Shown: positions 30,740 to 52,005 of the stretch, in pieces
How the letters are laid out: each line of letters begins with the position of its first letter
Numbering within the stretch: the stretch's first letter is position 1
Assembly: GCA_025923075.1 (NCBI GenBank)
Contig: JAICGN010000006.1
Location: 1-64,000, forward strand
Length of the DNA stretch: 64,000 bases
DNA from: Chitinophagaceae bacterium
GTDB lineage: Bacteria > Bacteroidota > Bacteroidia > Chitinophagales > Chitinophagaceae
Direction: 5' to 3'
The notes under the pieces: model-generated
Database searches by the model: none
Seen by the model: the letters and a program-made list of their open reading frames with translations, nothing else
Told to the model about the DNA's origin: nothing
Translations under genes and position numbers: made by a program

Positions 30740-32914
30740 TTAATTTTTATTTTCAACGATCCGATCGCTATCGGATTTGGTTTTTTCAGTATCAGTTCCC
30801 AGTCTTTGCAGGTAGGCGATCACCGCCAGTATCTCTGCATTTGGCTTTACGCGTATGCTATCTTTCAATAAATTGTTCTGGATTTTTGCCGCTTGACGCA
30901 CCAGGTCCTCGTTTGCGATATACTCATATCCTTCTTTATACGGAACTCCGATCGTACGCATTGCTTTGATCTTCGCGGAAGTGCTGGCCGTATCCAATTC
31001 TTTGTCCAGCATAAATGAGTAAGCGGGCATAATTGTGCCTGGCGATATGGCCTGCGGATCATCCATGTGATTAAAATGCCATGAATCAGATTTTTTTAAA
31101 TTCATTGTTCCTTCTCTTGCCAAATCCGGCCCCGTTCTTTTTGATCCCCACTGGAATGGATGATCATAAACAAACTCGCCTGCTTTGGAGTACTCGCCAT
31201 AGCGTTCTGTCTCAGACCGGAATGGTCGTATCATTTGCGAGTGACAAGTATAACAGCCCTCCCTCCTGTAGATATCCCTTCCCTGTAACTCAAGTGGTGT
31301 ATAAGGTGTTACACTGGCTATTGTCGGCACATTGGATTTAATAAGAAATGTCGGGACCAATTCGATGATGCCTCCAATAAGAATTACGATCAAAGTAGCA
31401 ATGAGAAAAGGAATGGGTTTTCGCTCGACCCGCCGATGCCAGTGCTCACCAACATGCTGCGTATAATTCTTTTCCAACGCCGGCGCCTCTGCATCCTCGT
31501 TTGCAACAAGTTTACCTTTTGCAACAGTCATAAATAAATTATACATCATAAGTATGGCGCCAGTCAGAAATAGTATGCCGCCAAAAGCACGAACCGCATA
31601 GAAAGGTTTCATGTAAGTGACTGTTTCAATAAACTGGTATTTCAGTTGACCTGCATCTGTAAATTGCTTCCACATAGACGCTTGTTGAAAACCTGCCCAA
31701 TACATTGGTACTGCGTAAAAAATAATTCCAAGCGTTGCGATCCAGAAATGGAAGCCGGCAAGACGTTTTGAAAAAAGCTCTGTTCTAAAAATCCTTGGAA
31801 TCAGCCAATAAAGAATACCAAATGTCAACATACCATTCCAGCCCAAGCCACCTACATGTACGTGCGCAATCGTCCAGTCAGTAAAGTGGCTGATTGCATT
31901 TACAGTTTTCAATGAAAGCATCGGGCCCTCGAAGGTTGCCATACCATAAGCAGTAACAGCCACCACCATAAATTTTAAGACCACATCTTCCCTTACTTTA
32001 TCCCATGCGCCACGAAGTGTAAGTAAGCCATTGATCATACCACCCCAGCTTGGGAAAATAAGTGTGAATGAGAAAACAATCCCTAATGATTGCGCCCAGT
32101 TAGGAAGCGAGGTATATAACAAATGGTGCGGGCCAGCCCAGATATACAGGAATATCAATGCCCAAAAGTGAATGATGGAAAGCTTGTACGAAAACACAGG
32201 CCTGTTTGCAGCTTTTGGCATAAAATAATACATCAGGCCGAGATAGGGTGTAGTAAGAAAGAAGGCAACAGCATTATGCCCATACCACCATTGCACCAGT
32301 GCATCCTGAACACCTGCATACCACGAATAACTATGAAATACACTAACCGGGAACTCAAATGAATTTACAATATGTAATACCGCGACGGTAACAAAAGTTG
32401 CTATATAAAACCAGATAGCGACATATAAATGCCTTTCTCTTCTTTTCAAAATTGTTGCAAACATGTTCCAACCAAACACAACCCAAATGATGGTGATTGC
32501 AATATCAATTGGCCATTCAAGCTCTGCATATTCTTTTCCGGTTGTCATTCCGAGGGGCAAAGTAATCGCAGCAGCAACAATAATTAATTGCCAGCCCCAG
32601 AAATGAATTTTGCTAAGCATATCGCTTGCCATCCTGGTTTTTAATAACCGTTGAAGCGAATAGTAATAGCCCATAAAGATGCCGTTACCCACAAAGGCAA
32701 ATATGACCGCATTGGTATGTAATGGACGAAGTCGTCCGAAGGTGAGACCGATAGTTTCTTTACCGGCAGTACCAGTCATGTTCCATTGAGGAAATACCAT
32801 GAGCAATGCCACCCAAAGACCTGCCAACATGCCGACAACACCCCAAATAATTGTGGCATAGGCGAAATTGCGAACGATCTTATTGTCATACTGAAATTTT
32901 TCCAGTGCTTGCAT
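30740..32914 (-). CDS. ccoNO: cbb3 cytochrome oxidase, fused CcoN-CcoO
   Basis: The 724-residue protein joins subunit I (CcoN, residues 1-~480, about 12 helices) and subunit II (CcoO, from about residue 510). The CcoN part shows GRLRPLHTNAVIFAFVGNG, WWYGHNAVAFF (haem-copper ligand region), GPHHLLYTSLPNW and HVHVGGLGWNGM. The CcoO part carries one haem motif, Cys554-x-x-Cys557-His558 (REGCYTCHSQMIRPF), and GPDLAREG. It reduces oxygen with high affinity and pumps protons in the inner membrane. The fusion is common in Bacteroidota. Confidence 0.96.
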   Translation of the reverse strand: MQALEKFQYDNKIVRNFAYATIIWGVVGMLAGLWVALLMVFPQWNMTGTAGKETIGLTFGRLRPLHTNAVIFAFVGNGIFMGYYYSLQRLLKTRMASDMLSKIHFWGWQLIIVAAAITLPLGMTTGKEYAELEWPIDIAITIIWVVFGWNMFATILKRRERHLYVAIWFYIATFVTVAVLHIVNSFEFPVSVFHSYSWYAGVQDALVQWWYGHNAVAFFLTTPYLGLMYYFMPKAANRPVFSYKLSIIHFWALIFLYIWAGPHHLLYTSLPNWAQSLGIVFSFTLIFPSWGGMINGLLTLRGAWDKVREDVVLKFMVVAVTAYGMATFEGPMLSLKTVNAISHFTDWTIAHVHVGGLGWNGMLTFGILYWLIPRIFRTELFSKRLAGFHFWIATLGIIFYAVPMYWAGFQQASMWKQFTDAGQLKYQFIETVTYMKPFYAVRAFGGILFLTGAILMMYNLFMTVAKGKLVANEDAEAPALEKNYTQHVGEHWHRRVERKPIPFLIATLIVILIGGIIELVPTFLIKSNVPTIASVTPYTPLELQGRDIYRREGCYTCHSQMIRPFRSETERYGEYSKAGEFVYDHPFQWGSKRTGPDLAREGTMNLKKSDSWHFNHMDDPQAISPGTIMPAYSFMLDKELDTASTSAKIKAMRTIGVPYKEGYEYIANEDLVRQAAKIQNNLLKDSIRVKPNAEILAVIAYLQRLGTDTEKTKSDSDRIVENKN

Positions 32915-33123: not shown

Positions 33124-33167
33124 CAAATGTATTTTTCAATTTTCCGGTTGGTTATGACGATTGTCAG
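33124..33167 (-). promoter_or_regulatory. ccoS-ccoNOQPGH promoter with FNR/CRP-type site
   Basis: The plus-strand sequence ATGACgattGTCAG (33154-33167) is an inverted repeat of the xTGAY-N4-RTCAx type. On the minus strand a perfect -7 box TACATTTG ends at 33124, 36.5 bp from the site centre, which puts the site near -41.5. No -33 TTG is evident, as expected for an activator-dependent promoter. Inference from spacing. Confidence 0.7.
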
Positions 33168-33193
33168 CCATTTTCATGAGCATTATCAATTAG

Positions 33194-35641: not shown

Positions 35642-35718
35642 TTCTAATTTTTTAATGTTTACAAAGATTGAGACATTGATATCTTTTAAACCTGAGCCGC
35701 CTCAGCGACAAGTCTGAC

Positions 35719-35850
35719 TTATATCAAAACCGAAGCCCCCTGATGAGTCAGGGGGCTGTGTAATTGAAACGAAAACCAACGATTGCCCATCCTGTGATGG
35801 GAAAGAGATTTTACCCTTTATAGCATAAGAACTGTGTATAGTGTCCTTGA
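35719..35850 (-). ncRNA. Candidate structured leader or small RNA upstream of ccoI
   Basis: A promoter ends at 35856 on the minus strand, so transcription should start near 35850, about 210 bases before the ccoI start. The leader forms CCCATC/GATGGG (35786-35801) and then a perfect 10-bp stem AGCCCCCTGA/TCAGGGGGCT (35734-35757), followed by TTCGGTTTTGATAT, a weak terminator-like tail. It could be an attenuator or an independent small RNA. A 23-codon ORF (35719-35790) overlaps both stems. Confidence 0.45.
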
Positions 35851-35855
35851 GAGGT

Positions 35856-35899
35856 CAAAATTAGCCGGTGCGAGTTTTTATAGTTATGACGTTTATCAT
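35856..35899 (-). promoter_or_regulatory. Promoter with FNR/CRP-type site upstream of ccoI
   Basis: The palindrome ATGACgtttATCAT (35886-35899) is followed on the minus strand by a perfect -7 box TAATTTTG ending at 35856, again 36.5 bp from centre to box end. Confidence 0.65.
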
Positions 35900-35993
35900 C
35901 CGTCACATTGATACTCCTCAGAACAAAATAGCCGCTCCAAATGATGGAAACGGCTACTGGATACAAGCAATCGAGAAAATCAATCGCGGGATT

Positions 35994-39224: not shown

Positions 39225-39992
39225 CTATAAATCTTTTCTTTTAAAAACCCGTAACGCCAACCAAAGTGGAATGACGATCCAGAGTAGCATGATGCCGGCT
39301 GTAAAAAGAGTACCTGCGCCGCTGCCAAAAAAATCTTTGTACAGGGCACCAGTATACCCCATTAATGCACTAACATCCATTTTGAGCATGATTGAAATAC
39401 GGCCAAGATCAATCGGATTCAGAGCAGAAAGGACAAGTGTGATCTTTTCAAGAGGGTAATCGCTGAAATTGAAAAGAATTAAAAGTATCAGCCCATCATA
39501 GATCAATGCAAAATAAAACCAAAGCAATAAAGCGAAACCAATGCCTCTTGCTTTATCTCTTGCCATTACTGAAGTAAGGAAGGCCAGTGATGTAAACACA
39601 AGCGTTAGAGAACATCCCGTAAACAAAAGTGAGAACCCAATACTATCGGGTGAAAAAAACAATACAGGAACTCCCACACCAATCAGGAAACTACTCAGGA
39701 GTGAAAGCCCTACACCAGCATATTCGCTCAGTAAAATTTTACGTCGGCTCATCGGCTGGGAAAGCATCAATTCGATAAACTCATACGAATTATAATAATG
39801 AATAGTTGTGAATATCATACTGATCAGGGGCACCACTATAAGGATAATGTTTAATAAACTCAGGATGGCCTTACTGCTATTCTCTTCCATATTGAAGAGA
39901 CTGAAGGAAACAAGAAAAAGAAATGCAGTGTATGCAAGAATTACTTTGCTTCTTACAATATCGTAAAGAACATATTTTGATAGCTTAAGCAT
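39225..39992 (-). CDS. nosY: NosY-like ABC transporter permease
   Basis: The 255-residue protein has six hydrophobic helices. Its N-terminus (LSKYVLYDIVRSKVILAYTAF) and YNSYEFIELMLSQPMSRRKI block are typical of NosY-type permeases. With NosF and NosD it forms the membrane system needed to mature the copper centre of nitrous oxide reductase. It is 25 bases downstream of nosF. Confidence 0.9.
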   Translation of the reverse strand: MLKLSKYVLYDIVRSKVILAYTAFLFLVSFSLFNMEENSSKAILSLLNIILIVVPLISMIFTTIHYYNSYEFIELMLSQPMSRRKILLSEYAGVGLSLLSSFLIGVGVPVLFFSPDSIGFSLLFTGCSLTLVFTSLAFLTSVMARDKARGIGFALLLWFYFALIYDGLILLILFNFSDYPLEKITLVLSALNPIDLGRISIMLKMDVSALMGYTGALYKDFFGSGAGTLFTAGIMLLWIVIPLWLALRVFKRKDL

Positions 39993-40017
39993 AAATCATC
40001 GCCATTTCTTAGTTTAC

Positions 40018-40785
40018 TCAATAAATTCTCTTTTCATTTTTTATTTCAAACATCCTGTCGATCCATGCACTATTGAATTTTTCTCCTTTCATAATCCTTG
40101 CAATCGCTTTACCAAGTTTCAATTCGCCTGTTTCCTCCCGTAGCTGTTCAATCGCTTTAAAAAATTCCATACTCCCTTCCTGCAGATACATGATATGAGT
40201 TGTTAGTTCATCCAGGTCGCTTAAAATATGTGACGTGATCAGGATGAGCTTATTTTTATTTTTTTCTTTCAGGATTTTTTCCTTTAAAATCTCCGAGGAC
40301 AACGGATCAAGGCCGGCGGTCGGTTCATCCAGTATCAATACATCTGGATCAAAAAGAAACGCAAGAGCAGCGCTCACCTTTTGTCGTGTACCACCCGACA
40401 AGGTCCGCATCGGTTTTTCAAAAATTTCTTTTAGCCCGAATTTGTTGATCAATTCTTTATCAAGATTATCGGCAGTTACATTTCGAATATTCCTCAACAT
40501 TCTAAAAAGCTGTCCTACTTTCATATTATCAGGATAACGGCCAATCTGGGGCATATACCCGATTTGAGAACGATAAGAAGGATCTCCATTGATCAGTTCG
40601 TCACTGAAAAATATTTGTCCACTATCAGCTTTTACCATACCAAGTATGGCTTTTATCAATGTTGTTTTACCAGACCCGTTCGGCCCAATCAGCGAGATCA
40701 CCTGTCCTTTTTCAAATTGCGCAGTAATATCCTTGAGTGCCGTCAGCTTTTTAAATTTTTTATTTATATGCTCTATCCTGATCAT
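40018..40785 (-). CDS. nosF: NosF-like ABC transporter ATPase
   Basis: The 255-residue protein shows Walker A GPNGSGKTTLIKA, a Q-loop at GYMPQIGRYP, the signature LSGGTRQKVSAAL and Walker B DVLILDEPTAGLDP, then the switch His in ITSHILSD. It powers NosY. Its start overlaps the nosD stop by four bases, a tightly coupled arrangement. Confidence 0.95.
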   Translation of the reverse strand: MIRIEHINKKFKKLTALKDITAQFEKGQVISLIGPNGSGKTTLIKAILGMVKADSGQIFFSDELINGDPSYRSQIGYMPQIGRYPDNMKVGQLFRMLRNIRNVTADNLDKELINKFGLKEIFEKPMRTLSGGTRQKVSAALAFLFDPDVLILDEPTAGLDPLSSEILKEKILKEKNKNKLILITSHILSDLDELTTHIMYLQEGSMEFFKAIEQLREETGELKLGKAIARIMKGEKFNSAWIDRMFEIKNEKRIY

Positions 40786-42014
40786 AACTTATTGGGTTTT
40801 ATCATTGGCTTATCATCAGTAAGATTTTCGGAAGCAAGACTAGGGATGGCCTTTTCCGCTTTATCAAGCAATGAGACCATAAAGCTTCTCAATAATATCA
40901 ATGAATTTGGGTTTTGCTCGACGATCATGGAGTACATACTTACAGGATGATAAGGAACATCGCCTACTCCATCCCGGTTCCTGTCATAACCCTCATACTT
41001 ATCCCAATAATTTTTATAAAATTTATTCAGCACCAACGAGCCGTTTGTCGCTACGTCAAAACTGTTACCAAAGAAATTGTTCTGAAAAAATTTATTATCG
41101 TCGCAACTTGCCTGTACCTTAATAGCCCAGCCGTTCTCTTTAAAAATATTTTGTTCAATTTCTATCCGGCTGCTGCCTTCCATGTGTATGGCTACTGTAT
41201 TTTGAATGAACTTATTGTTTTTGATGTAACTGTTTGAAATGTCTTTTAACAAAATGCCGTATGCACTGGGTCCCCAGTTTTTTTCAAATACATTGTTTTC
41301 CATCCGCACATTTTTAGTGTACATCACCGCTACCCCTGCCCCGTTATTTCTAAAGGTGTTGGCAAGATAAGAGTTGTCGTGCGAAAACATGAAATGCAGT
41401 CCGTAGCGGATATTGTTCTCACTTAAATTTTTTTGGATGGATGATTGGGTAACAAATTCAAAATAGATCCCATCACGGTGGCCTTCGATCAAATTATTTT
41501 CGATCTGCATGTTTGAACACTTCCAAAGGTGTATGCCATTGCCTGAGGAATGCTCCGATTTGTTGTTCCCTTTGATCGTATTATTCCGGACGACAGAATT
41601 AATCGTGTTAGCCAAATGAATTCCGAACGAAGTATTAACGATACTATTGTTTTCAATGAGAATATTGGTCGCATCAATTATTTTCAAAGCGGCGTAATCA
41701 TTCATTGCCGAATAACCCGCGTTGGCAAAATGGATGCCGCGGATCACAATATTCTTCCCTGTGAGCGTAAGGATTTCATTTTTGTTTTCACCATCCAGCA
41801 CCGGGTGATCAATCCCAATTAAATAAACTGCCTTATCGATTACAAGCGTACCCTCCTTGTATATCCCTTTGTTCAACAAAATGGTATCTCCATCTTGTGC
41901 CTTGTTAATCCCCTGGCGTAACGTGCTGATAGCTTTATCTTTTCCAACTACGATTTTATTAGCAAATACGTTGCCTGTAACAAAAAGGAACAATATGGTC
42001 AATAAGTTTTTCAC
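40782..42014 (-). CDS. nosD: NosD, periplasmic beta-helix copper-centre maturation protein
   Basis: The 410-residue protein has a signal peptide (MKNLLTILFLFVTGNVFA) and a right-handed parallel beta-helix of repeated N-rich turns (IENNSIVNT, VVRNNTIKGN, IENNLIEGH, MENNVFEKN). NosD works with NosFY to supply sulfide or copper for the CuZ centre of NosZ. Its start overlaps the nosL stop by four bases. Confidence 0.95.
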   Translation of the reverse strand: MKNLLTILFLFVTGNVFANKIVVGKDKAISTLRQGINKAQDGDTILLNKGIYKEGTLVIDKAVYLIGIDHPVLDGENKNEILTLTGKNIVIRGIHFANAGYSAMNDYAALKIIDATNILIENNSIVNTSFGIHLANTINSVVRNNTIKGNNKSEHSSGNGIHLWKCSNMQIENNLIEGHRDGIYFEFVTQSSIQKNLSENNIRYGLHFMFSHDNSYLANTFRNNGAGVAVMYTKNVRMENNVFEKNWGPSAYGILLKDISNSYIKNNKFIQNTVAIHMEGSSRIEIEQNIFKENGWAIKVQASCDDNKFFQNNFFGNSFDVATNGSLVLNKFYKNYWDKYEGYDRNRDGVGDVPYHPVSMYSMIVEQNPNSLILLRSFMVSLLDKAEKAIPSLASENLTDDKPMIKPNKL

Positions 42015-43048
42015 TTGATCAGGATATTATAGAGGGTAGCCCAATTGGTAACCCGGCTTCCTTCTATCTCCGCAGATTTCTTCCTGGCTTCTGCTGCGTT
42101 TTTAAATGCGGCAGCATTTCCGCCCATCGGACTTTTGAACTGGCTGCTTACGACAAATTCTGCCGACTTTACTTTTACAAATTCACCGGGAGCATTATAC
42201 TGAACAAATAACGTTTGGTGAATATTACTTAGTTCCACACCGCGGCGTTCTAAAAATACAGCTATGCAATGTGTGTCATCAAACTTGTATACCTTTCCTT
42301 TTTTAGTTACGATCTCGGCTCCGAATCTTGGATCCACAATGGTCATTTTACATTCTGCACATTGATCTTTTCCTAAATTAATTTTTTCGGCTTTTGGATT
42401 ACATCCCATAAGAAGGCAAGTAATGAATGCAACGGTTGCCGAAAGCTTGGTATTAGCGTGTGCCATTTGTTTTTGTTTTTTGGTTTTCCGCCATTCCACA
42501 AACCAGATAATAAAAAACAGGGCGGTTACCCCTACTACCACCCACCCTCCCGTATCGGGATAAGAATAGGAATCAAAGTTCAGCAGTTTTTTGTGACCGA
42601 TAAGAGGTGGTTGATAAGACAAACCAGGAACCTTGATGGCGGCTGCCGGATCCAGGTCGTGTCCATATTTATAGCCCCAAATATAAAAGTCCACCAATGC
42701 GGCCACACCCCCAATCACAGAAAGAACCAGATAAATGAAGAGCAATTTTCGGCTGCCCGTAAATGCAACAGCTAATCCAAACAAAATAAAGAACCCTAAA
42801 ATATAGATAAGAAAAGAGAACTCCGGAAACATTTCTGCTTCAATATGCTTCATCCCGATGTAGTGATTCAAACCATTGATTATGTCGACCTGCCCGGTAA
42901 TTTTATTTAACCAGATCTGCATCGATAACCCTTCCGGATATTGTGGAGCAATCAGGTAAATGGACCATGCTGGAACAAAAAACATAGTGATCAACGCTAA
43001 AGATCCAATCGCTATAATAATCCGGGAAGTATTGCTCATCTTTTTCAT
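42011..43048 (-). CDS. nosL: NosL fused to an N-terminal multi-helix membrane domain
   Basis: The 345-residue protein has about four membrane helices in residues 1-~195, then a lipoprotein-like segment (ATVAFITCLLMGCNPK), then a NosL domain (CAECKMTIVDPRFGAEI, YKFDDTHCIAVFL, SQFKSPMGGNAAAF). NosL is a copper(I) chaperone for NosZ. Classical NosL is a stand-alone outer-membrane lipoprotein of ~180-200 residues, so this one is a fusion or a readthrough of two original genes. The internal lipobox suggests the NosL half could once have been a separate lipoprotein. Confidence 0.9.
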   Translation of the reverse strand: MKKMSNTSRIIIAIGSLALITMFFVPAWSIYLIAPQYPEGLSMQIWLNKITGQVDIINGLNHYIGMKHIEAEMFPEFSFLIYILGFFILFGLAVAFTGSRKLLFIYLVLSVIGGVAALVDFYIWGYKYGHDLDPAAAIKVPGLSYQPPLIGHKKLLNFDSYSYPDTGGWVVVGVTALFFIIWFVEWRKTKKQKQMAHANTKLSATVAFITCLLMGCNPKAEKINLGKDQCAECKMTIVDPRFGAEIVTKKGKVYKFDDTHCIAVFLERRGVELSNIHQTLFVQYNAPGEFVKVKSAEFVVSSQFKSPMGGNAAAFKNAAEARKKSAEIEGSRVTNWATLYNILIK

Positions 43049-43070
43049 AAAACCTTATTAGTAAACAAAA

Positions 43071-43093
43071 TCCGGAAGGGTTGAGCTTCCGGA
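43071..43093 (-). terminator. Hairpin between the fasciclin gene and nosL
   Basis: TCCGGAAG/CTTCCGGA (43071-43078 with 43086-43093) is followed on the minus strand by TTTTG. It lies 33 bases after the fasciclin stop, so nosL-D-F-Y may be partly attenuated from nosZ transcription. Confidence 0.6.
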
Positions 43094-43125
43094 AAGATTG
43101 CCAACCTGAAAGTCCTTTGTTTATG

Positions 43126-43692
43126 TTATTTGGAAGGAGGCAACAGCACCGCATCGATGACGTGTACGATGCCATTTGCTGCAGGTATAGATAAAACCAC
43201 CGTTGCGGAGTTATTTATAATCACCTTACCATCCTTTTTTGTTATTGTAACATTGTCACCGTTTACCTGATTTAAAGTTTGCCCATCCTCCATCATCTCC
43301 GTTTTTAAAGTCCCGACATATACATGGTATTCCAAAATATCCTTTAACTGGGCTTTGTTTTCGTCTTTCATCAGGTTATCCAATGTCTCCTTTGGAACTT
43401 TATCAAAAGCTGCATTTGTAGGAGCAAAAACTGTAAATGGCCCGGCATTGGACAGTGAATTAATAAGGTCTGCTTGTTTTAAAGTTGCTACAAGCGTTGA
43501 ATGATCCTTAGAACCATTTGCGATTTTGACAACATCTTTCGCGGATACATCATCCCTTACCGAAGCTTGTCCGCCCGTTTCGACAGCGGTTTCATTTACA
43601 CCAGCGGTTTTTTCGGTTTCTGTACCCGTTTCATTACAGGAAAAAATGATGATCGTGGAAACCGATAATACGATGTTTACTATTTTTTTCAT
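43126..43692 (-). CDS. Fasciclin-domain lipoprotein inside the nos cluster
   Basis: The 188-residue product has a lipobox at the end of a short signal (VSTIIIFSC) and one fasciclin domain (DHSTLVATLKQADLINSL, GPFTVFAPTNAAFDKVP, LEYHVYVGTL, GIVHVIDAVLLPP). Fasciclin domains are adhesion or ligand-binding folds in the envelope. Lying between nosZ and nosL, it may be an accessory to copper or haem protein handling, but no function is known. Hairpins flank it on both sides. Confidence 0.9.
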   Translation of the reverse strand: MKKIVNIVLSVSTIIIFSCNETGTETEKTAGVNETAVETGGQASVRDDVSAKDVVKIANGSKDHSTLVATLKQADLINSLSNAGPFTVFAPTNAAFDKVPKETLDNLMKDENKAQLKDILEYHVYVGTLKTEMMEDGQTLNQVNGDNVTITKKDGKVIINNSATVVLSIPAANGIVHVIDAVLLPPSK

Positions 43693-43758: not shown

Positions 43759-45789
43759 TTATTGTTTGCTTGTAGCCTTTAATGTATCCTTGACGGGAGT
43801 GCCTTCTGTGGTTACTGCCGGCTTGTTAGTACCCGTACTGAAATGCAATGCAACATTGGAACCAGCAGGAGACACTCTTAAGTAACCAGACATCTCCTGG
43901 TGAAGTGCAGAACAGAAATCTGTACAATAAAACGGGAATATGCCACTTCTGTCGGCCACCCACTTAAGTGATTGTGTTTCGCCGGGCATGACCAAGATCT
44001 CAGCATTATTAGCTCCTTTTATAGCAAACCCATGCGGCACGTCCCAATCCTGCTCAAGGTTTGTTATGTGGAAATAGACCTCATCACCTACTTTCACTCC
44101 CTCAATATTGTCAGGTGTGAGATGGGAGCGAATAGCCGTCATCCATACATGCACCTGGTTGCCGTTCCGTTCTACTTTAGTCTGGCCTTCGCCTTTAGAA
44201 ACATAGGCATGTGTGTTCTCTTCAATTTTGTATATTTTCCTTTGCTTACTTTGTATCAAAGCAGCAGGTAACGCTTCGGCATAGTGCGGCTCGCCAGTCG
44301 TGGGAAAGTCAAGAATCAATTTCATTTTCTCGCCGCTGATATCATATAACTGTGCGCTTTGCGTCAGTTCTGGCCCGGTTGGCAAATAACGATCTTTAGT
44401 AATTTTATTATAAGCGATCATGTACTTACCGTGAGGCTTTGCTGTCGGTCCGCCAGGTACGGATAAGTGACCAACAGAATAGTAAGTAGGTACACGGTCA
44501 AGCACCTGAAGATCACTTAATCTCCATTTCACAATTTCAGAAGAAACAAACATGGAAGTATAGGCGTTGCCTTTTCCATCAAATTCAGTATGTAAAGGCC
44601 CAAGTCCCGGTTTGGCCACTTCGCCATGCAAGGCTGCCTCGTACTTAATTATTGGAATACCATCATACTCGCCATCAAATGCTTTATCAGCAATTGCTTT
44701 CTGAATTTTGGTAAAAGAGAATACAGGAATGCTTGCTGCTAATTTACCTGAAGCCGCTATGTATTCACCGGTAGGATCAACATCTGTTCCGTGAGGTGAT
44801 TTTGGACAGGGAATTACATATAGCATATCCGGACAGTCAGCAGGATCTAATACTGCTACTTCTGTTCTAATAGTCGAACGGGCAGTATGAGTATTTTCAT
44901 CATATACATTATGGGCATATTTTACCGATTGCGTTTTTGCTCTACCAGCTTTTAAATATTCTTCAGCTTTCTTCCAGTTGACAGCAATAACAAAGTCTTT
45001 GTCGTTCTTAGCAGAATTCTGTTCAAGTAGCGTGTTTGCCCTTTCTGAATTATAACAACTGAAGAAAAACCAACCGTGCGATTTGCCTTTGCCCGCACGC
45101 GAAAGATCAAAGTTCACTCCGGGAGTACGAATCTGGAACGCGATATTCATTTCTCCCGAGGTTGGATTGACTGATATAAAGCTTATTGAGCCTTTGAAAT
45201 TCTGTTTGTAAGTATTGATAGGGACATCGCCATTTTGATCATCGAGCGGCACGCTGAAGCGGGTTGCTGCTACAATGTATTCGGAATTTTCGGTAATAAA
45301 AGGTGAAGCATGATTACCTGCGCTATTGGGTATTTCCAATATTTCCGATGTACGGAATGTAGTAAGATCAATACGGGCGATGCGTGGGGTGTTGTTACCA
45401 TTGGCAAAAGCCCATCGCCCATCATGTTCTCCTTTAGTTTGTGAAAGAGCGATATGATGTTGATCATCCCAGGGTACAAAACCGTGAGAAGTGTTCAACA
45501 TCGGCTTTGTTTCTTCGCTAAAACCATAACCGCTTTCGGGAGATTGGGAGAACACAGGTATGATACGGAATAGACGCCCGGATGGAATACCATAGACAGC
45601 TACCTGTCCGTTGAATCCGCCTGATACAACGTTATAAAATTCGTCGTATTTACCAGGGGCAACGAAAGTCTTTGAGGCATCGCCACTTGCCGCAGATTGC
45701 GCCGTCTTGGGTTTACAACTTTGCATTGAGACGAGGCAAGCAGAGATCAATATCAAAACCGCATGGGTTTTGAAGTAATTAAATTTCAT
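43759..45789 (-). CDS. nosZ: Nitrous oxide reductase, Sec-type (clade II) lipoprotein NosZ
   Basis: The 676-residue protein has a Sec lipoprotein signal (LISACLVSMQSC) with no twin-arginine motif, the mark of clade II enzymes. The beta-propeller CuZ ligand region is visible (DDQHHIALSQ, GNHASPF, GKSHGWFFF, KSPHGTDV, PLHTEFDGK). The C-terminal cupredoxin CuA site has Cys622, Cys626, His630 and Met633 (YCTDFCSALHQEM). It reduces N2O to N2 with electrons from cytochrome c. It is the second gene after the shared cytochrome promoter, and fasciclin, nosL, nosD, nosF and nosY follow. Confidence 0.97.
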   Translation of the reverse strand: MKFNYFKTHAVLILISACLVSMQSCKPKTAQSAASGDASKTFVAPGKYDEFYNVVSGGFNGQVAVYGIPSGRLFRIIPVFSQSPESGYGFSEETKPMLNTSHGFVPWDDQHHIALSQTKGEHDGRWAFANGNNTPRIARIDLTTFRTSEILEIPNSAGNHASPFITENSEYIVAATRFSVPLDDQNGDVPINTYKQNFKGSISFISVNPTSGEMNIAFQIRTPGVNFDLSRAGKGKSHGWFFFSCYNSERANTLLEQNSAKNDKDFVIAVNWKKAEEYLKAGRAKTQSVKYAHNVYDENTHTARSTIRTEVAVLDPADCPDMLYVIPCPKSPHGTDVDPTGEYIAASGKLAASIPVFSFTKIQKAIADKAFDGEYDGIPIIKYEAALHGEVAKPGLGPLHTEFDGKGNAYTSMFVSSEIVKWRLSDLQVLDRVPTYYSVGHLSVPGGPTAKPHGKYMIAYNKITKDRYLPTGPELTQSAQLYDISGEKMKLILDFPTTGEPHYAEALPAALIQSKQRKIYKIEENTHAYVSKGEGQTKVERNGNQVHVWMTAIRSHLTPDNIEGVKVGDEVYFHITNLEQDWDVPHGFAIKGANNAEILVMPGETQSLKWVADRSGIFPFYCTDFCSALHQEMSGYLRVSPAGSNVALHFSTGTNKPAVTTEGTPVKDTLKATSKQ

Positions 45790-45828
45790 ATGGTTATTAT
45801 TTAAATAAAGAGAATAGTTGCAATATTT

Positions 45829-46299
45829 TTATTTAACCCCATCATTGGATCGCATAAATTCCAGGATCTGTCGTGCGTCGTCCTTTGTGATATTTTGATT
45901 AGGCATTCGAACAAGACATTGCTCCAGTAATTTTTGCGCTTCCGGATCCGTCTCCAGCATCATGTCCACGTTCGTAATCATATTCATGATCCAATGTGGC
46001 TCACGTCTTTTCGTAACTCCCGCCCAGCCGGGACCGACCAGCCTTTCGTCGGTTAGCTTATGACAGCTCTGGCATTTTAGATCATAGGTGCTCTTTCCTG
46101 TTTTTACCCATTCCTGATTCAAAGGAGTTGTCAGCGTTACATCCTCTGGTTTAATTTCTGTGCCATGAGTTTCGGGCTGATCCTTCGCCGCCTCCTGACC
46201 TGTTGTTTCTTCTGTCGGTTTTTCTTCACTATTGCAGGCTGCAAAAAACAACGAACCCGAAATAAGAAGTGCAAGTGCTAATAATGATTTCCGTTTCAT
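45829..46299 (-). CDS. Mono-haem cytochrome c lipoprotein upstream of nosZ
   Basis: The 156-residue lipoprotein (LISGSLFFAACNSEE) has an acidic linker followed by a class I cytochrome c with KCQSCHKLTDERLVGPGW and a distal Met in RMPNQ. It is the likely electron donor to NosZ. It is the first gene of the nos transcript, with the candidate FNR-type promoter upstream, and is divergent from rrf2. Confidence 0.9.
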   Translation of the reverse strand: MKRKSLLALALLISGSLFFAACNSEEKPTEETTGQEAAKDQPETHGTEIKPEDVTLTTPLNQEWVKTGKSTYDLKCQSCHKLTDERLVGPGWAGVTKRREPHWIMNMITNVDMMLETDPEAQKLLEQCLVRMPNQNITKDDARQILEFMRSNDGVK

Positions 46300-46355
46300 T
46301 TTGATCTGAGTTTATTGTTAGTGAATATCAAAAGATACACACATCTTTTAATTCG

Positions 46356-46399
46356 CAAAAATATTTGTGTGCACACCGTTCTACCATGATATGTGTCAA
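46356..46399 (-). promoter_or_regulatory. nos operon promoter with FNR/CRP-type site
   Basis: The plus strand reads ATGATatgtGTCAA (46386-46399). The minus-strand -7 box TATTTTTG (46356-46363) fits TAnnTTTG exactly, with centre-to-box-end spacing of 36.5 bp. A perfect palindrome GTGTGCACAC (46367-46376) lies between site and box and could be a second operator. Confidence 0.75.
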
Positions 46400-46407
46400 A
46401 AAAAGGA

Positions 46408-46451
46408 ATGATTATAATCACCTTGAAAAGAAGGCTTCCCGATTAATTTTG
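46408..46451 (+). promoter_or_regulatory. rrf2 promoter with FNR/CRP-type site
   Basis: ATGATtataATCAC (46408-46421) is followed by TAATTTTG (46444-46451), a perfect -7 box at the 36.5-bp spacing. Its centre is 22 bp from the nos site, so each promoter has a proximal site at about -41.5 and a distal one at about -63.5. Confidence 0.7.
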
Positions 46452-46464
46452 AAAAACTTTTTTC

Positions 46465-46905
46465 ATGATTTTGTCCAAATCATTTGGATATGCATTGCGG
46501 GGTATATTATATATAGCAGCCATGCGGGATGAGAATCGAAAAGTACAGATCGACGAGATCGCAACGAAATTAGCTGTTCCCAAACATTTCCTGGGAAAGA
46601 TCATGCAACAGATGGTTAAAGCGGGCCTCTTAAAATCCACGAAAGGCCCGTACGGCGGATTTTCCCTTTCAGCTGAAACACTTGCGATGCCTGTAATGCG
46701 GCTCGTCGAGATTACAGATGGCATGGAACAATTTAGTATGTGTGTTCTGAAATTAAAATATTGCAACGGTTTAAATCCCTGTCCTCTCCATTATGAAATG
46801 GAAGAGGTAAAAAAGGACTATTTAGATGTTTTTACCAAAAACACTTTTGGAGATCTACTGAAAGACAGTAAAAGCGACCTTCTTAAGAGTCTCGCCGTTG
46901 ATTAA
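46465..46905 (+). CDS. Rrf2-family transcription factor, NsrR-like cysteines
   Basis: The 146-residue protein has the Rrf2 winged helix (SKSFGYALRGILYIAAM, KLAVPKHFLGKIMQQMVKAG, STKGPYGGFSL) and three cysteines at 93, 100 and 106 (SMCVLKLKYC, NPCPLHY) in the region where NsrR/IscR hold an Fe-S cluster. Such proteins sense NO, iron or Fe-S status. Placed between nos and ric2 and driven by a candidate shared FNR-type operator, it probably senses NO. The spacing C-x6-C-x5-C differs slightly from E. coli NsrR. Confidence 0.85.
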   Translation: MILSKSFGYALRGILYIAAMRDENRKVQIDEIATKLAVPKHFLGKIMQQMVKAGLLKSTKGPYGGFSLSAETLAMPVMRLVEITDGMEQFSMCVLKLKYCNGLNPCPLHYEMEEVKKDYLDVFTKNTFGDLLKDSKSDLLKSLAVD

Positions 46906-46920
46906 CTTAATTTTTTTTTG

Positions 46921-46964
46921 ATGATGAAAGTCATGTTTTACTTTTTTTTATCTCTTTAATATTG
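46921..46964 (+). promoter_or_regulatory. Promoter with FNR/CRP-type site upstream of the second ric gene
   Basis: ATGATgaaaGTCAT (46921-46934) is followed by TAATATTG (46957-46964; 5 of 6 -7 positions), spacing 36.5 bp. Confidence 0.6.
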
Positions 46965-46986
46965 ATTGTGATTAGGGATTAGCAGT

Positions 46987-47739
46987 ATGCATCAAAATAT
47001 TTATACTATAGAACCTTCCTCTTTTGTAACAGATATTGTGATTCATGATTACCGAACAGCAGATGTATTTAGAAAATATGGTATAGATTTTTGTTGCGGT
47101 GGTAAGTGGTCGCTGGATATAGTTTGTCAAAATAAGAATCTGAGTACAGAAGACATCATAGAAGAACTTAGCAAGATTGTAAGGCAAACTGGTTCCAATG
47201 CAGCACTTGATTTTGATAACTGGGATATCGATTTTTTGGCTGATTACATTCTTAATGTGCATCATCGTTACCTGAAAAGAGCATTACATGAAGTCAAAGA
47301 GCAAGTCACCAAATTTTTGGACGGACACCGCAAGAAATTTTCAGAGCTTGAAGAGCTGGAAACTATCATTAATCGCTTCATGAAGGAAATTCCACCGCAT
47401 ATGAAGCAGGAGGAAGAGATATTCTTTCCGTACATAAAACAAATTCACCATGCACACAAGCACCGTGAATCGTATGCAAGGCTCCTAATACGAACGCTAC
47501 GGAAGCCTATTGAAGAAGTCATGCTAAAAGAACATGAAGCAACGGGATCAAACCTGCATCGATTAAGGACAATCACGAATAATTATACTCCACCGGATAA
47601 AGCATGTATAGCCCATAAGGTAACATTTGCAAAATTAAAAGAACTGGATAATGACCTCGTCCAGCACATCCATCTTGAAAGCAATATCCTTTTTCCCAAG
47701 GCAATACAAATGGAGAAGGAATTATTACAGGATAACTAA
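46987..47739 (+). CDS. ric: Iron-sulfur cluster repair di-iron protein Ric, second copy
   Basis: The 250-residue protein has the DUF542 start FRKYGIDFCCGGKWSLDIVC with the CC motif, and the HHE domain with NVHHRYLKRAL, HMKQEEEIFFP, EHEATGSNLH and LVQHIHLESNILFP. It parallels the copy at 35994 but is clearly diverged, so both may be retained with different triggers or partners. Same expected function: repair of NO- or oxygen-damaged Fe-S clusters. Confidence 0.95.
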   Translation: MHQNIYTIEPSSFVTDIVIHDYRTADVFRKYGIDFCCGGKWSLDIVCQNKNLSTEDIIEELSKIVRQTGSNAALDFDNWDIDFLADYILNVHHRYLKRALHEVKEQVTKFLDGHRKKFSELEELETIINRFMKEIPPHMKQEEEIFFPYIKQIHHAHKHRESYARLLIRTLRKPIEEVMLKEHEATGSNLHRLRTITNNYTPPDKACIAHKVTFAKLKELDNDLVQHIHLESNILFPKAIQMEKELLQDN

Positions 47740-47782: not shown

Positions 47783-47826
47783 TTGATCTAAATCATCAAT
47801 TACGATACGTTGAAATAATAGATTTG
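47783..47826 (+). promoter_or_regulatory. osmC promoter with near-perfect FNR box
   Basis: TTGATctaaATCAT (47783-47796) matches the FNR consensus TTGAT-N4-ATCAA in nine of ten positions. The -7 box TAGATTTG (47819-47826) is perfect, spacing 36.5 bp. The osmC ATG is 17 bases further. Confidence 0.8.
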
Positions 47827-48953: not shown

Positions 48954-50207
48954 GTGCCATTTACTATGCTTGACCTGGAGCACATGACATCCCTTTTTGA
49001 GAATGCAACGGAAGGAATTATTCTTACGAACGGACGGGGGCTTATTGTACTTGCCAATCCTGCCGCTGAAAGAATGTTTGGTTATAGTCCAACTGAACTA
49101 GAGAATTTGCCTGTAGAAACCTTGATCCCTGGTAACTTCAGACCGGGGCATAAAGCATTGCGTGAAGGATTTCATAAAAATCCATCTAACCGGTCGATGG
49201 GAGCCGGCCGAGACCTGTTTGCACTAAAAAAAAATGGCGAGGAATTTCCCGTTGAAATAAGTCTAAGTCATTACAAAAAAAATGATGAGCTTTTTGTTAT
49301 CGCGTTTATTGTTGATATTACCTTAAGAAAAGAAGTTGAGCAAAATCTTGTGAAAAAACAAAATGAATTGGAAAAAGTAACATTTGAAATCAGGAAACTG
49401 AATACTGAACTTGAAAAGAAGGTAGACGAACGAACGCATATTCTCAAAGAGGCCCTGGAAAAACTGGAACAATCACAAACGGAACTACACGAAGCGCTGG
49501 ACAAAGAAAAACAGCTTAATGAAATAAAAAGTCGCTTTGTGTCCATGGCGTCACATGAATTCAGAACACCACTTAGTGCCGTACTTTCTTCGGCAGCTTT
49601 ACTCTCCAAATATACAAAAGAAGATGACCAGGAAAAAAGGAATAAGCATATTGACCGGATCAAAGATTCTGTAAAACATCTTAATGACATTTTGGAGGAT
49701 TTTCTTTCCTTAGGAAAACTGGATGAGGGACGCATAAGCGCCGATCCTCATGAATTTAACCTTCACGAAATGATGAATGAGACACTAGCCGATATGAAGG
49801 TAGTATTAAAGCCCGGACAAAAATTCGATTTTAAGTACGAGGGAGAAGAAAAAATAAATGCCGATAAAAAATTATTGAGAAATATTCTGATCAACCTGAT
49901 AAGCAATGCAGCTAAATTTTCCGAAGAGGATACGCCTATTGCAATTTCGGTAAAGGGTGACAAGGAAAGAAGTACCATCGCTGTAGCGGACAAAGGCATT
50001 GGTATTTCTAAAAAAGACCAGGAACATTTGTTTACCATGTTTTACAGGGGATCAAATGTTACTAATATACAAGGGACGGGCCTTGGTCTCCACATTGTAA
50101 AAAGGTATCTTGACCTGATAAACGGCACCGTAAATTTGCAAAGCACATTGGGAAAAGGAACGTCTATTACCATCACATTTCCAAACGATACAAACAATAA
50201 TTCATGA
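48954..50207 (+). CDS. PAS-domain sensor histidine kinase, FixL-like haem-pocket spacing
   Basis: The ~417-residue soluble kinase has an N-terminal PAS domain (residues ~10-125), a coiled coil, a DHp domain with phospho-acceptor His201 (SHEFRTPLSA) and an HATPase domain (NILINLISNAAKFS, DKGIGISKKD, GTGLGLHIVKRY). In the PAS domain His66 (RPGHKALR) and Arg86 (GAGRDLF) lie 20 residues apart, like His200 and Arg220 of FixL, which bind haem and sense O2. The start is GTG 48954 or ATG 48966. Its stop overlaps the response-regulator ATG by four bases. Confidence 0.85.
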   Translation: MPFTMLDLEHMTSLFENATEGIILTNGRGLIVLANPAAERMFGYSPTELENLPVETLIPGNFRPGHKALREGFHKNPSNRSMGAGRDLFALKKNGEEFPVEISLSHYKKNDELFVIAFIVDITLRKEVEQNLVKKQNELEKVTFEIRKLNTELEKKVDERTHILKEALEKLEQSQTELHEALDKEKQLNEIKSRFVSMASHEFRTPLSAVLSSAALLSKYTKEDDQEKRNKHIDRIKDSVKHLNDILEDFLSLGKLDEGRISADPHEFNLHEMMNETLADMKVVLKPGQKFDFKYEGEEKINADKKLLRNILINLISNAAKFSEEDTPIAISVKGDKERSTIAVADKGIGISKKDQEHLFTMFYRGSNVTNIQGTGLGLHIVKRYLDLINGTVNLQSTLGKGTSITITFPNDTNNNS

Positions 50208-51259
50208 AATCAATTCTTGTTATAGAAGATAACAAAGACATCAGGGAAAACACAGCAGAGATACTGGACCTTGCCGGATACAAAACTTTTACTGCCGAAA
50301 ATGGCAAGAAGGGAGTTGACATTGCAGTTAGAGAAAAACCAGATGTAATTGTTTGTGATATCATGATGCCCGAGCTCGATGGATACGGTGTACTTCACTT
50401 ATTGAGAAAAAATGAAACCACACAATCCATTCCATTTATATTTTTAACAGCAAAAACAGAAAGAAGCGATTTTCGCAAAGGAATGGAAATGGGCGCTGAT
50501 GATTATGTTACTAAACCATTTGAGGATATCGAGCTGCTGAATGCAATTGAGATCAGGCTGAAAAAAGCAGAGATACTTGGGAACAAATATGCTTCATCAC
50601 AGCAAGGCCTGTCACAGTTTATAAAAGACGTTAAGGATAGTGGTTTAATGAAGCAGCTTGCCGATCAGTATAATGTTGAGTCATACGGCAAAAAACAATC
50701 ACTTTACCAGGAAGGCAAGCGACCAAAACTTTTGTACTATGTAGTAAAGGGAAAAGTAAAAGGGTTTAAAACTCACGAAGACGGTAAAGAATACATTACT
50801 GACCTTTTCAGCGAGGGTGATTTTATTGGTTATCCGGCTTTAATCGAAGATAAAAACTATGATGACAGCACGGTGATTCTTGAAGATGCCGAAATCATGC
50901 AAATACCCCGGGAAGATTTTCATAAAATGGTGTTTGGCGATCTTAGCATTGCTGCCAAATTCATTCGCATCATCACAAAAAATGTAAAAGAAAAGGAAGA
51001 AAGGTTGCTCAATCTTGCTTACAGCTCTTTACGCAAACGCGTTGCAAAGGCACTTGTTGATATACAGGAGAAATTTAATACTGGCGGACAGAATAAACCT
51101 ATTGAAATATCAAGGGAAGATATTGCACACTATGTGGGGACAGCAACCGAATCGTTGATAAGAACCCTGAGCGATTTTAAAGCTGAAAAATTAATTGAAA
51201 TAAAAGAAGGAAAGATCGTGATCGCAAATCTTGATAAACTAAAAAATCTCCTATATTAA
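50204..51259 (+). CDS. Response regulator fused to a Crp/FNR-type effector
   Basis: The 351-residue protein has an N-terminal receiver domain with phospho-acceptor Asp52 (VIVCDIMMP) and Lys104 (VTKPFED), then a cyclic-nucleotide-binding-like domain (GDFIGYPALIED) and a C-terminal HTH-Crp domain (REDIAHYVGTATESLIRTL). Glu316 and Arg320 match FNR Glu209 and Arg213, which read TGA half-sites. No Cys cluster for [4Fe-4S] is seen, so phosphorylation, not direct O2 sensing, is likely. It is cotranslated with the kinase and is a candidate regulator of the palindromes described in this window. Confidence 0.9.
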   Translation: MKSILVIEDNKDIRENTAEILDLAGYKTFTAENGKKGVDIAVREKPDVIVCDIMMPELDGYGVLHLLRKNETTQSIPFIFLTAKTERSDFRKGMEMGADDYVTKPFEDIELLNAIEIRLKKAEILGNKYASSQQGLSQFIKDVKDSGLMKQLADQYNVESYGKKQSLYQEGKRPKLLYYVVKGKVKGFKTHEDGKEYITDLFSEGDFIGYPALIEDKNYDDSTVILEDAEIMQIPREDFHKMVFGDLSIAAKFIRIITKNVKEKEERLLNLAYSSLRKRVAKALVDIQEKFNTGGQNKPIEISREDIAHYVGTATESLIRTLSDFKAEKLIEIKEGKIVIANLDKLKNLLY

Positions 51260-51938: not shown

Positions 51939-52005
51939 TGTGACAAAAGTCACAGTCAGTAGTGACAACTGTCATTACCGCCAATTCAGTTCCTGAATAT
52001 TTTTA
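51939..52005 (+). promoter_or_regulatory. yceI-operon promoter with two tandem CRP/FNR-type sites
   Basis: TGTGACaaaaGTCACA (51939-51954) is a perfect palindrome and AGTGACaactGTCATT (51961-51976) is a close copy, with centres 22 bp apart. The -7 box TATTTTTA ends at 52005, 36.5 bp from the second centre. The gene start is at 52047. Confidence 0.75.

Follow-up and report, generated by a model that had tools for sequence, protein, structure and literature searches.

The window analysed here, a 64,000-nucleotide stretch of a Chitinophagaceae genome, carries on its minus strand a nos operon that begins with the cytochrome c gene nosC (45829-46299, PF00034), continues with nosZ (43759-45789), whose product matches the Sec-dependent (clade II) nitrous-oxide reductase family TIGR04246 at 924 bits against a cut-off of 625, and ends with a fasciclin gene, nosL, nosD, nosF and nosY (39225-43692; nosF and nosY were named from reading, not from a family search). 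With TIGR04246 and TIGR04247 both above cut-off and a NosL domain (PF05573) present, this is a clade II (Sec-type) nos operon. The NosL domain lies at the end of a 345-residue protein (42011-43048, match from residue 227), the first part of which looks membrane-helix-like by eye, and the fasciclin-domain gene (43126-43692) is likewise found within the nos operon at the fetched loci L078, L079, L084, L094, L102 and L104, though not at L077. On the plus strand, a row of genes leads away from nosC: rrf2 (46465-46905, PF02082), which encodes an Rrf2-family regulator with Cys93, Cys100 and Cys106; a gene for a RIC/YtfE-type iron-sulfur repair di-iron protein (46987-47739; TIGR03652, 205.0 bits, cut-off 204.7); osmC; a flavodoxin gene; a PAS histidine kinase gene (48954-50207); and a response regulator gene (50204-51259), in whose product a receiver domain (Asp52) is fused to a CRP-type half. 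We refer to the last of these as the receiver-CRP.

Between nosC and rrf2 lie two sites of the pattern TGA-N6-TCA, namely site 1, TGATATGTGTCA (46387-46398), and site 2, the perfect palindrome TGATTATAATCA (46409-46420). Facing outward from them are two -7 boxes of the pattern TAnnTTTG, that of nos, TATTTTTG (46356-46363, minus strand), 23 nt from site 1, and that of rrf2, TAATTTTG (46444-46451, plus strand), 23 nt from site 2, i.e., the arrangement has exact mirror symmetry. A sequence-only reading of this region had placed the site centres at 46392.5 and 46414.5, 22 bp apart, had put both on one DNA face and had proposed that these Crp/FNR-type sites serve the outward promoters symmetrically. 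The coordinates bear out the spacing, which corresponds to about two helical turns, and the gap is exactly 23 nt on each side. If transcription starts 5 nt beyond each box, the starts being read from the boxes, site 1 would be proximal (-41.5) for nos and distal (-63.5) for rrf2, and site 2 the converse; an inverted TGA...TCA site centred near -41.5 is the arrangement of a class II CRP/FNR promoter. Binding of the pair by a CRP/FNR protein is suggested here by association. The rrf2 start codon lies 13 nt past its box in the window (46452-46467) and 4 nt past it in L102, so that the leader of the rrf2 message would be very short or absent. A search of 46100-46700 for sigma-70 style promoters returned one promoter-like match versus 1.5 in shuffled sequences, and a search of the same interval for terminators found none.

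The 22-bp spacing recurs throughout the window. Its 35 TGAN6TCA sites form nine pairs no more than 200 bp apart, of which five have a spacing of 22 bp, two a spacing of 194 bp and the others 113 and 172 bp; with 0.019 pairs expected per distance, five at 22 bp has a probability of about 2e-11. These five pairs, hereafter doublets, start at 33155, 35693, 35887, 46387 and 51941, and the genes behind them are those for a cbb3 oxidase (a CcoN-CcoO fusion), a FixI-type ATPase (two doublets), nos/rrf2 and yceI. The yceI promoter, for which the sequence-only reading had claimed the same spacing, indeed has a pair at 22 bp (51941 and 51963; doublet 51941-51974, plus strand) with the box TATTTTTA at gap 23. 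The cbb3 promoter doublet (33155-33188, minus strand) has TACATTTG at gap 23, and the FixI-type ATPase gene is preceded by one doublet with TAATTTTG at gap 23 (35887-35920, minus strand) and a second with AATCTTTG at gap 23 (35693-35726, minus strand), a non-canonical box read by eye. The FixI-type ATPase doublets (35693-35920) are a tandem 194 bp apart, the nearer one having the odd box; at locus L094 the tandem doublets are 167 bp apart, and AATCTTTG recurs as the odd box. The CcoN and CcoO subunits of the cbb3 oxidase form one fused protein with COX1 plus FixO domains (30740-32914). In addition to the doublets, a single site, TGATCTAAATCA (47784-47795, plus strand), with TAGATTTG at gap 23, lies before osmC inside the rrf2 gene row.

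In the whole genome from which the window is taken (4.98 Mb), TGAN6TCA-N10-TGAN6TCA occurs 13 times and its backwards control once. Site pairs with gaps of 0 to 30 nt number 29 versus 4 in the control, and the 10-nt gap alone accounts for 13 of them, the other 30 gaps together for 16 (P about 3e-14 for the excess). Chance can be excluded as the source of the 22-bp spacing, since it is shared by five of nine pairs in the window and 13 of 29 in the genome. At gap 23, a box that departs from the fixed letters at one position or none is present in nine of the 13 doublets (L001, L003, L004, L005, L006, L007, L008, L010 and L011), giving ten promoters as L004 has boxes on both sides, and only one box was found at any other gap from 15 to 35 (gap 35, L008). 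The remaining four (L002, L009, L012 and L013) have only weaker boxes at gap 23, read by eye.

Among relatives, the full pattern with a strict TAnnTTTG box (a strict doublet promoter) was found in 86 of 147 genomes of the family, at 198 places, and the control pattern in no genome. A scan of the phylum found it in 22 of 296 genomes, which divide into 8 of 11 from the same family, 4 of 5 from a second family in its order, 8 of 57 from the rest of the class and 2 of 223 others. To these we can add a motif-independent set of 80 named loci around the regulator gene, picked by the regulator alone, whose taxa include Terrimonas, Sediminibacterium, Chitinophaga, Niastella, Dyadobacter, Rufibacter and many Bacteroidota without names. 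This set holds 96 site pairs at 22 bp, no other distance from 12 to 60 having more than five; a strict box stands at gap 23 in 40, and no other gap from 5 to 45 has more than three. Of the sites lacking an upstream partner, 77 have a box at gap 45, more than 40 strict doublets would account for, so many promoters seem to carry a degenerate proximal site; at a further 17 of these single sites the box stands at gap 23. In the named set, the recognised gene closest behind a boxed doublet is that of an ATPase in 17 cases, a kinase in 14, cbb3 in 12, RIC, rrf2 and nosC in three each, the receiver-CRP in two and yceI in one, with none recognised in 37; the doublets before kinase genes would fit autoregulation. 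The paired-site geometry is therefore confirmed as real and is more general than first claimed, the sequence-only reading having neither named the regulator nor seen how general the architecture is.

We compared ten regions in which nosC and rrf2 diverge: the window, L077, L078 (Terrimonas), L094, L100, L102, L104, L144, L146 and L229. Using only the regulator as query retrieved L077, L078, L144 and L146, and also L074, which L094 extends (five of the ten regions); the shared doublets were the reason for fetching L100, L102 and L104, and the operator search yielded L229, along with L233 and L239. L141 and L078, being one stretch, were counted once. All ten have one doublet between the two genes. 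The nos box is strict in all ten and the rrf2 box in eight, with TATTTTTA in its place in L094 and L229. Pairwise likeness among the ten regions across the 65 nt that run from the distal site to the nos box is 38 to 66%, so the conserved elements stand out from diverged DNA. In the named set, strict boxes on both sides were found at three of the 96 doublets, all at nosC/rrf2 (one of the three being L141, i.e., L078), and sharing would thus be mostly a speciality of nosC/rrf2. Further doublets with strict boxes on both sides occur in L103 (near 300) and at G207:C11:986315-986410. In the named set, the nosC of L152 has a doublet upstream with no box on the nosC side, and those of L163 and L205 have no doublet with a box facing nosC; with these exceptions, not every nos operon is read from such a doublet.

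The sequence-only reading had also proposed that Rrf2 represses nos through GTGTGCACAC (46367-46376), which lies between the proximal site and the -7 box. The palindrome is present there, it is perfect, and its position would suit a repressor site. Nevertheless, perfect palindromes of at least 10 bp number 65 in the window, about one per kb, and among the 253 fetched loci GTGTGCACAC occurs in L004 and L115 only, both copies of the window stretch; no relative locus examined carries it, including the nine other divergent nosC/rrf2 regions. At chance frequency and without conservation, GTGTGCACAC was rejected as an operator, and repression through it is barely credible.

A better candidate for an Rrf2 operator is the inverted repeat AAAAGATACACACATCTTTT (46330-46349), which begins 6 nt past the nos box and would cover the nos start. 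We scored leaders against AAAAGAYRYNNRYRTCTTTT within 12 nt of the box, and 13 of 14 nos leaders reach 15 to 18 of a maximum of 18 (the window 18), the consensus being drawn from some of the scored leaders; the fourteenth, L079, scores 11. Of the other strict doublet promoters, 116 of 117 score 7 to 14, and the one that scores 18, L239, turned out to be a nos promoter. With the repeat-found L229, L233 and L239 left out, at least 15 of 18 is reached by 11 of 12 nos leaders versus none of 116 other doublet promoters. Inspection by eye found the repeat in nine of ten nos leaders behind a doublet, and the half-site letters AAAAGAYRY are kept across nos leaders. When the letters of each leader were shuffled, the best inverted repeat had a P of 0.01 to 0.39 in nine leaders and 0.99 in L079, and in L094 and L081 the best repeat picked was a different one; this test is weak, and the case for an operator rests on the shared letters. 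As a genome-wide pattern the repeat is not enriched, with 5 sites versus 4 in the control in the window's own genome (around one of them, C130:11678, no ORF of 90 aa was found among those listed) and 26 versus 40 over the family genomes. These counts do not support a genome-wide operator regulon. Eight of the 26 family sites lie directly behind a nos doublet box (G000, G004, G012, G019, G071, G084, G118 and G142).

The protein that would act there has an Rrf2 domain (PF02082, 86.7 bits, cut-off 30), and its Cys93, Cys100 and Cys106, the three-Cys pattern of iron-sulfur Rrf2 proteins, are kept in 11 of 11 other genomes. It does not qualify as NsrR by the NCBIfam equivalog model, its 48.4 bits falling far short of the cut-off of 182; sensing of NO by this Rrf2 is what we infer. 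The genome of L079, where the repeat is missing (G049, 83% complete), has no Rrf2 relative at E 1e-12. The combination of activation with NO-sensing Rrf2 repression that the sequence-only reading had put forward is thus plausible on the nos side, where the repeat stands in the leaders and is absent from the genome that has no Rrf2 relative; the operator would be a different one than claimed, and the rrf2 side of the control region has no leader repeat.

The repeat could instead work in RNA, as a 5' stem-loop affecting stability or pausing, given that it lies inside the presumed transcribed leader, where a stem could form, and that it is present in G071, whose sole Rrf2 relative is weak (E 3e-14). 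We consider this unlikely: the letters AAAAGAYRY are themselves conserved, beyond mere complementarity, the loop would have only 2 to 6 nt, a scan of 45700-47000 with Rfam gave no match, and the only genome in the comparison that has no Rrf2 relative lacks the repeat. An Rrf2 operator remains our preferred candidate for it.

The kinase at the end of the rrf2 row offers an input for the doublets. In comparisons with the PDB, its PAS domain matched FixL haem-PAS structures (2cmn, E 4e-12; also 1dp6 and 8js5), with 10jx, another histidine-kinase PAS that is not FixL, slightly better and E. coli DosP/YddU weaker. In the alignment, His66 falls on the histidine of the FixL 'SRH' and Arg86 on the arginine of 'GIGR', which we take to be His200 and Arg220 in Bradyrhizobium numbering. 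Counted by genome, the haem histidine is kept in 23 of 23 others and the distal arginine in 22 of 23 (Met in G114), so that at the sequence level this is a haem-PAS kinase with both residues of FixL. Given the FixL match and the conserved His and Arg, the kinase is likely to sense O2 through its haem-PAS domain. It is somewhat unlikely that it responds to NO, CO or redox state instead, or that its PAS has no haem, in which case the regulon would not be an oxygen regulon. Sequence does not reveal the ligand, the top PDB match is not FixL and the arginine is absent in one relative, but the haem histidine and distal arginine are conserved, the targets include the cbb3 oxidase, the FixI-type ATPase, nos and RIC, and the FNR-type proteins described below have cysteines like those of an O2-labile cluster.

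The receiver, the cNMP-binding fold and the HTH_Crp_2 domain of the neighbouring gene (50204-51259) belong to one protein, and this receiver-CRP is likely the activator of the doublets. Across 32 other genomes its Asp52, Glu316 and Arg320 are invariant, and Thr313 is kept in 30; Glu316 and Arg320 presumably stand at the positions where CRP and FNR residues read TGA. Relatives were found in 108 of the 147 family genomes, among the matches listed, namely 107 at full length (E 1e-100 or better) plus G078, with a match of residues 128-348 at a contig start. Among the matches listed, a strict doublet promoter occurs in 75 of the 108 receiver-CRP genomes versus 11 of the 39 others (Fisher P 1e-5, a value that ignores phylogeny and genome size); the 33 of 108 without one are to be read against a demanding strict pattern. 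Of the doublets listed, 46 of 136 lie within 15 kb of a receiver-CRP gene where 1.35 are expected (the linkage tests took 150 of the 198 family doublets, 48 being left out, and doublets within one genome are not independent).

In genomes without the receiver-CRP, another protein accompanies the doublets. Beside doublets in two such genomes we found an FNR-type protein, i.e., a CRP-type protein of 236-238 residues with N-terminal cysteines and the helix GTATES-IRLLSEF, and in the nine near-complete genomes that have doublets and no receiver-CRP, a full-length match to it was present in nine of nine. The proteins were read for five of these (G066, G087, G099, G125 and G146); G031, G041, G080 and G136 were assigned by match alone. 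Among the 12 best matches, all 12 have the same recognition helix and 11 have C-x2-C-x8-C (L248 has no third cysteine), a spacing that we take to be similar, not identical, to that of E. coli FNR, and an iron-sulfur cluster in these proteins would follow by inference. Counted down to E 5.8e-70, FNR-type proteins occur in 36 genomes among the matches listed, G110 (E 1.7e-59) being counted as having neither regulator. Strict doublets are found in 84 of 125 genomes with a receiver-CRP or an FNR-type protein versus 2 of 22 with neither, among the matches listed. The two exceptions are 72% and 60% complete, and in one of them, G012, the kinase gene runs off the contig end where the receiver-CRP gene would follow. 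Of the doublets listed in FNR-type genomes, 12 of 57 lie within 15 kb of the FNR-type gene where 0.38 are expected, with the same limits on the linkage test; strict doublets are missing from 8 of 17 FNR-type-only genomes, among the matches listed. A quick tree, built with one outgroup, groups the receiver-CRP proteins into a single clade (support 0.94); support for the FNR-type clade is only 0.47.

Since FNR-type proteins accompany doublets in nine genomes without it, the receiver-CRP is not needed everywhere, and this raises the question of whether, in the window's own genome, genuine doublets are bound by some other protein of the CRP/FNR family, with the receiver-CRP a mere neighbour. That genome does encode 11 cNMP-domain proteins. 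Only two of them, however, have a recognisable CRP helix-turn-helix (HTH_Crp_2 at E 0.001), and the second has a different recognition helix, SREVISR; when all reading frames of the 11 loci were checked, the TATES helix was found in the receiver-CRP only. The genome's best match to the FNR-type protein is at E 1.6e-32, versus 6e-70 or better in the 36 FNR-type genomes, and the excess of doublets near receiver-CRP genes given above also argues against a mere neighbour. Activation by another protein is, in our estimation, quite improbable, and we proceed with the receiver-CRP as the likely activator.

Taken from sequence, then, the control region is probably a shared bidirectional low-oxygen promoter, in which a FixL-like kinase acts through the receiver-CRP on the doublet and Rrf2 at 46330-46349 gates nos. 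At low O2, the FixL-like haem-PAS kinase (48954-50207) would phosphorylate the receiver domain of the receiver-CRP (50204-51259), and two phosphorylated dimers would sit next to each other on the doublet. Of these, the one at -41.5 would contact RNA polymerase (class II activation) and that at -63.5 would help to hold it; because the pair is shared by outward promoters, each site would be proximal for one and distal for the other. The rrf2 promoter would drive toward the row that ends in the kinase and receiver-CRP genes, making positive feedback possible. Bound across the nos start to the inverted repeat of 46330-46349, Rrf2 would keep nos off until a nitrosative signal frees it, so that full nos expression would need both low O2 and NO; the nos/rrf2 circuit would then be an incoherent loop turned AND gate. 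On balance, we lean toward a broader reading, namely that this is a lineage-wide low-O2 promoter code of Bacteroidota, in which promoters made of two CRP-type dimers at a fixed 22 bp, 23 nt from the phylum's -7 box, are recognised by one DNA-binding specificity that has been joined, by lineage, to two unrelated oxygen sensors (a FixL-fed receiver or an FNR-type cysteine cluster), and that the nos operon uses such a pair jointly, back to back, with the gene of its own repressor, giving a gate for low O2 and NO.

Several known systems resemble parts of this proposal. In Bradyrhizobium diazoefficiens, FixLJ provides the input to FixK2, and cbb3 is among the targets. FixK2 activates nosRZDFYLX from one TTGA-N6-TCAA box 40.5 bp from the start (PMC5582078). 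As there, a CRP/FNR-type protein would activate nos at low O2 here; in contrast, the FixK2 site is one base longer on each side than TGA-N6-TCA, and the B. diazoefficiens nos promoter has one FixK box where a 22-bp site pair here serves two promoters (PMC5582078). In B. diazoefficiens the cascade runs through two distinct proteins, FixJ and FixK; in the receiver-CRP, receiver and CRP half form one polypeptide, and this locus does not show the arrangement of a separate FixJ, with a DNA-binding domain of its own, activating a separate fixK gene. The tandem CRP/FNR (class III) promoters of enterobacteria place two dimers upstream of one promoter with variable spacing; here the spacing is fixed at 22 bp across the family. 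Activator-repressor logic is known from the enterobacterial hcp promoter, with an FNR-like site upstream and an NsrR site downstream (PMC1274295). That promoter likewise joins a low-O2 activator with an Rrf2-family repressor closer to the start, but the NsrR motif there is gATGyAT-N5-ATrCATc, while the leader repeat, if it is the Rrf2 operator, is of the type AAAGACAT-N2-ATGTCTTT and its target is nos (PMC1274295). In Alphaproteobacteria, FnrN and FixLJ-FixK are alternative O2 inputs (PMC4999443). The likeness lies in related targets being served by either an iron-sulfur FNR protein or a FixL-fed, cluster-free protein; the differences are the other phylum, the fusion protein and the paired sites with fixed spacing (PMC4999443).

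The terms nosZ, tandem and Bacteroidota do not appear in the main text of a study of CRP/FNR proteins in an anammox bioreactor microbiome (PMC8510549). Our search was confined to open-licence literature, subscription papers being outside its scope, and found nothing there on the paired-site architecture, the receiver-CRP fusion or a nos regulator of Bacteroidota. The clade II nosZ of Bacteroidota is considered to be a major sink for the greenhouse gas N2O, and the kinase and receiver-CRP give it a named candidate regulator. The site code is precise enough to be scanned for in any genome, and comes with a second candidate operator and a logic that can be tested. Additionally, a single site code on which sensor modules have been exchanged would make an evolutionary test case paralleling FnrN and FixK of Alphaproteobacteria.

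The targets outside the window would fit a low-oxygen or dormancy programme. Within the same genome, the doublets beyond the window (L006-L013) precede, among others, two universal stress protein genes and the genes for a zinc alcohol dehydrogenase and a cation ATPase, and further neighbours are S30AE-like (a ribosomal S30AE match just under cut-off), YtxH-like and erythromycin-esterase-like genes.
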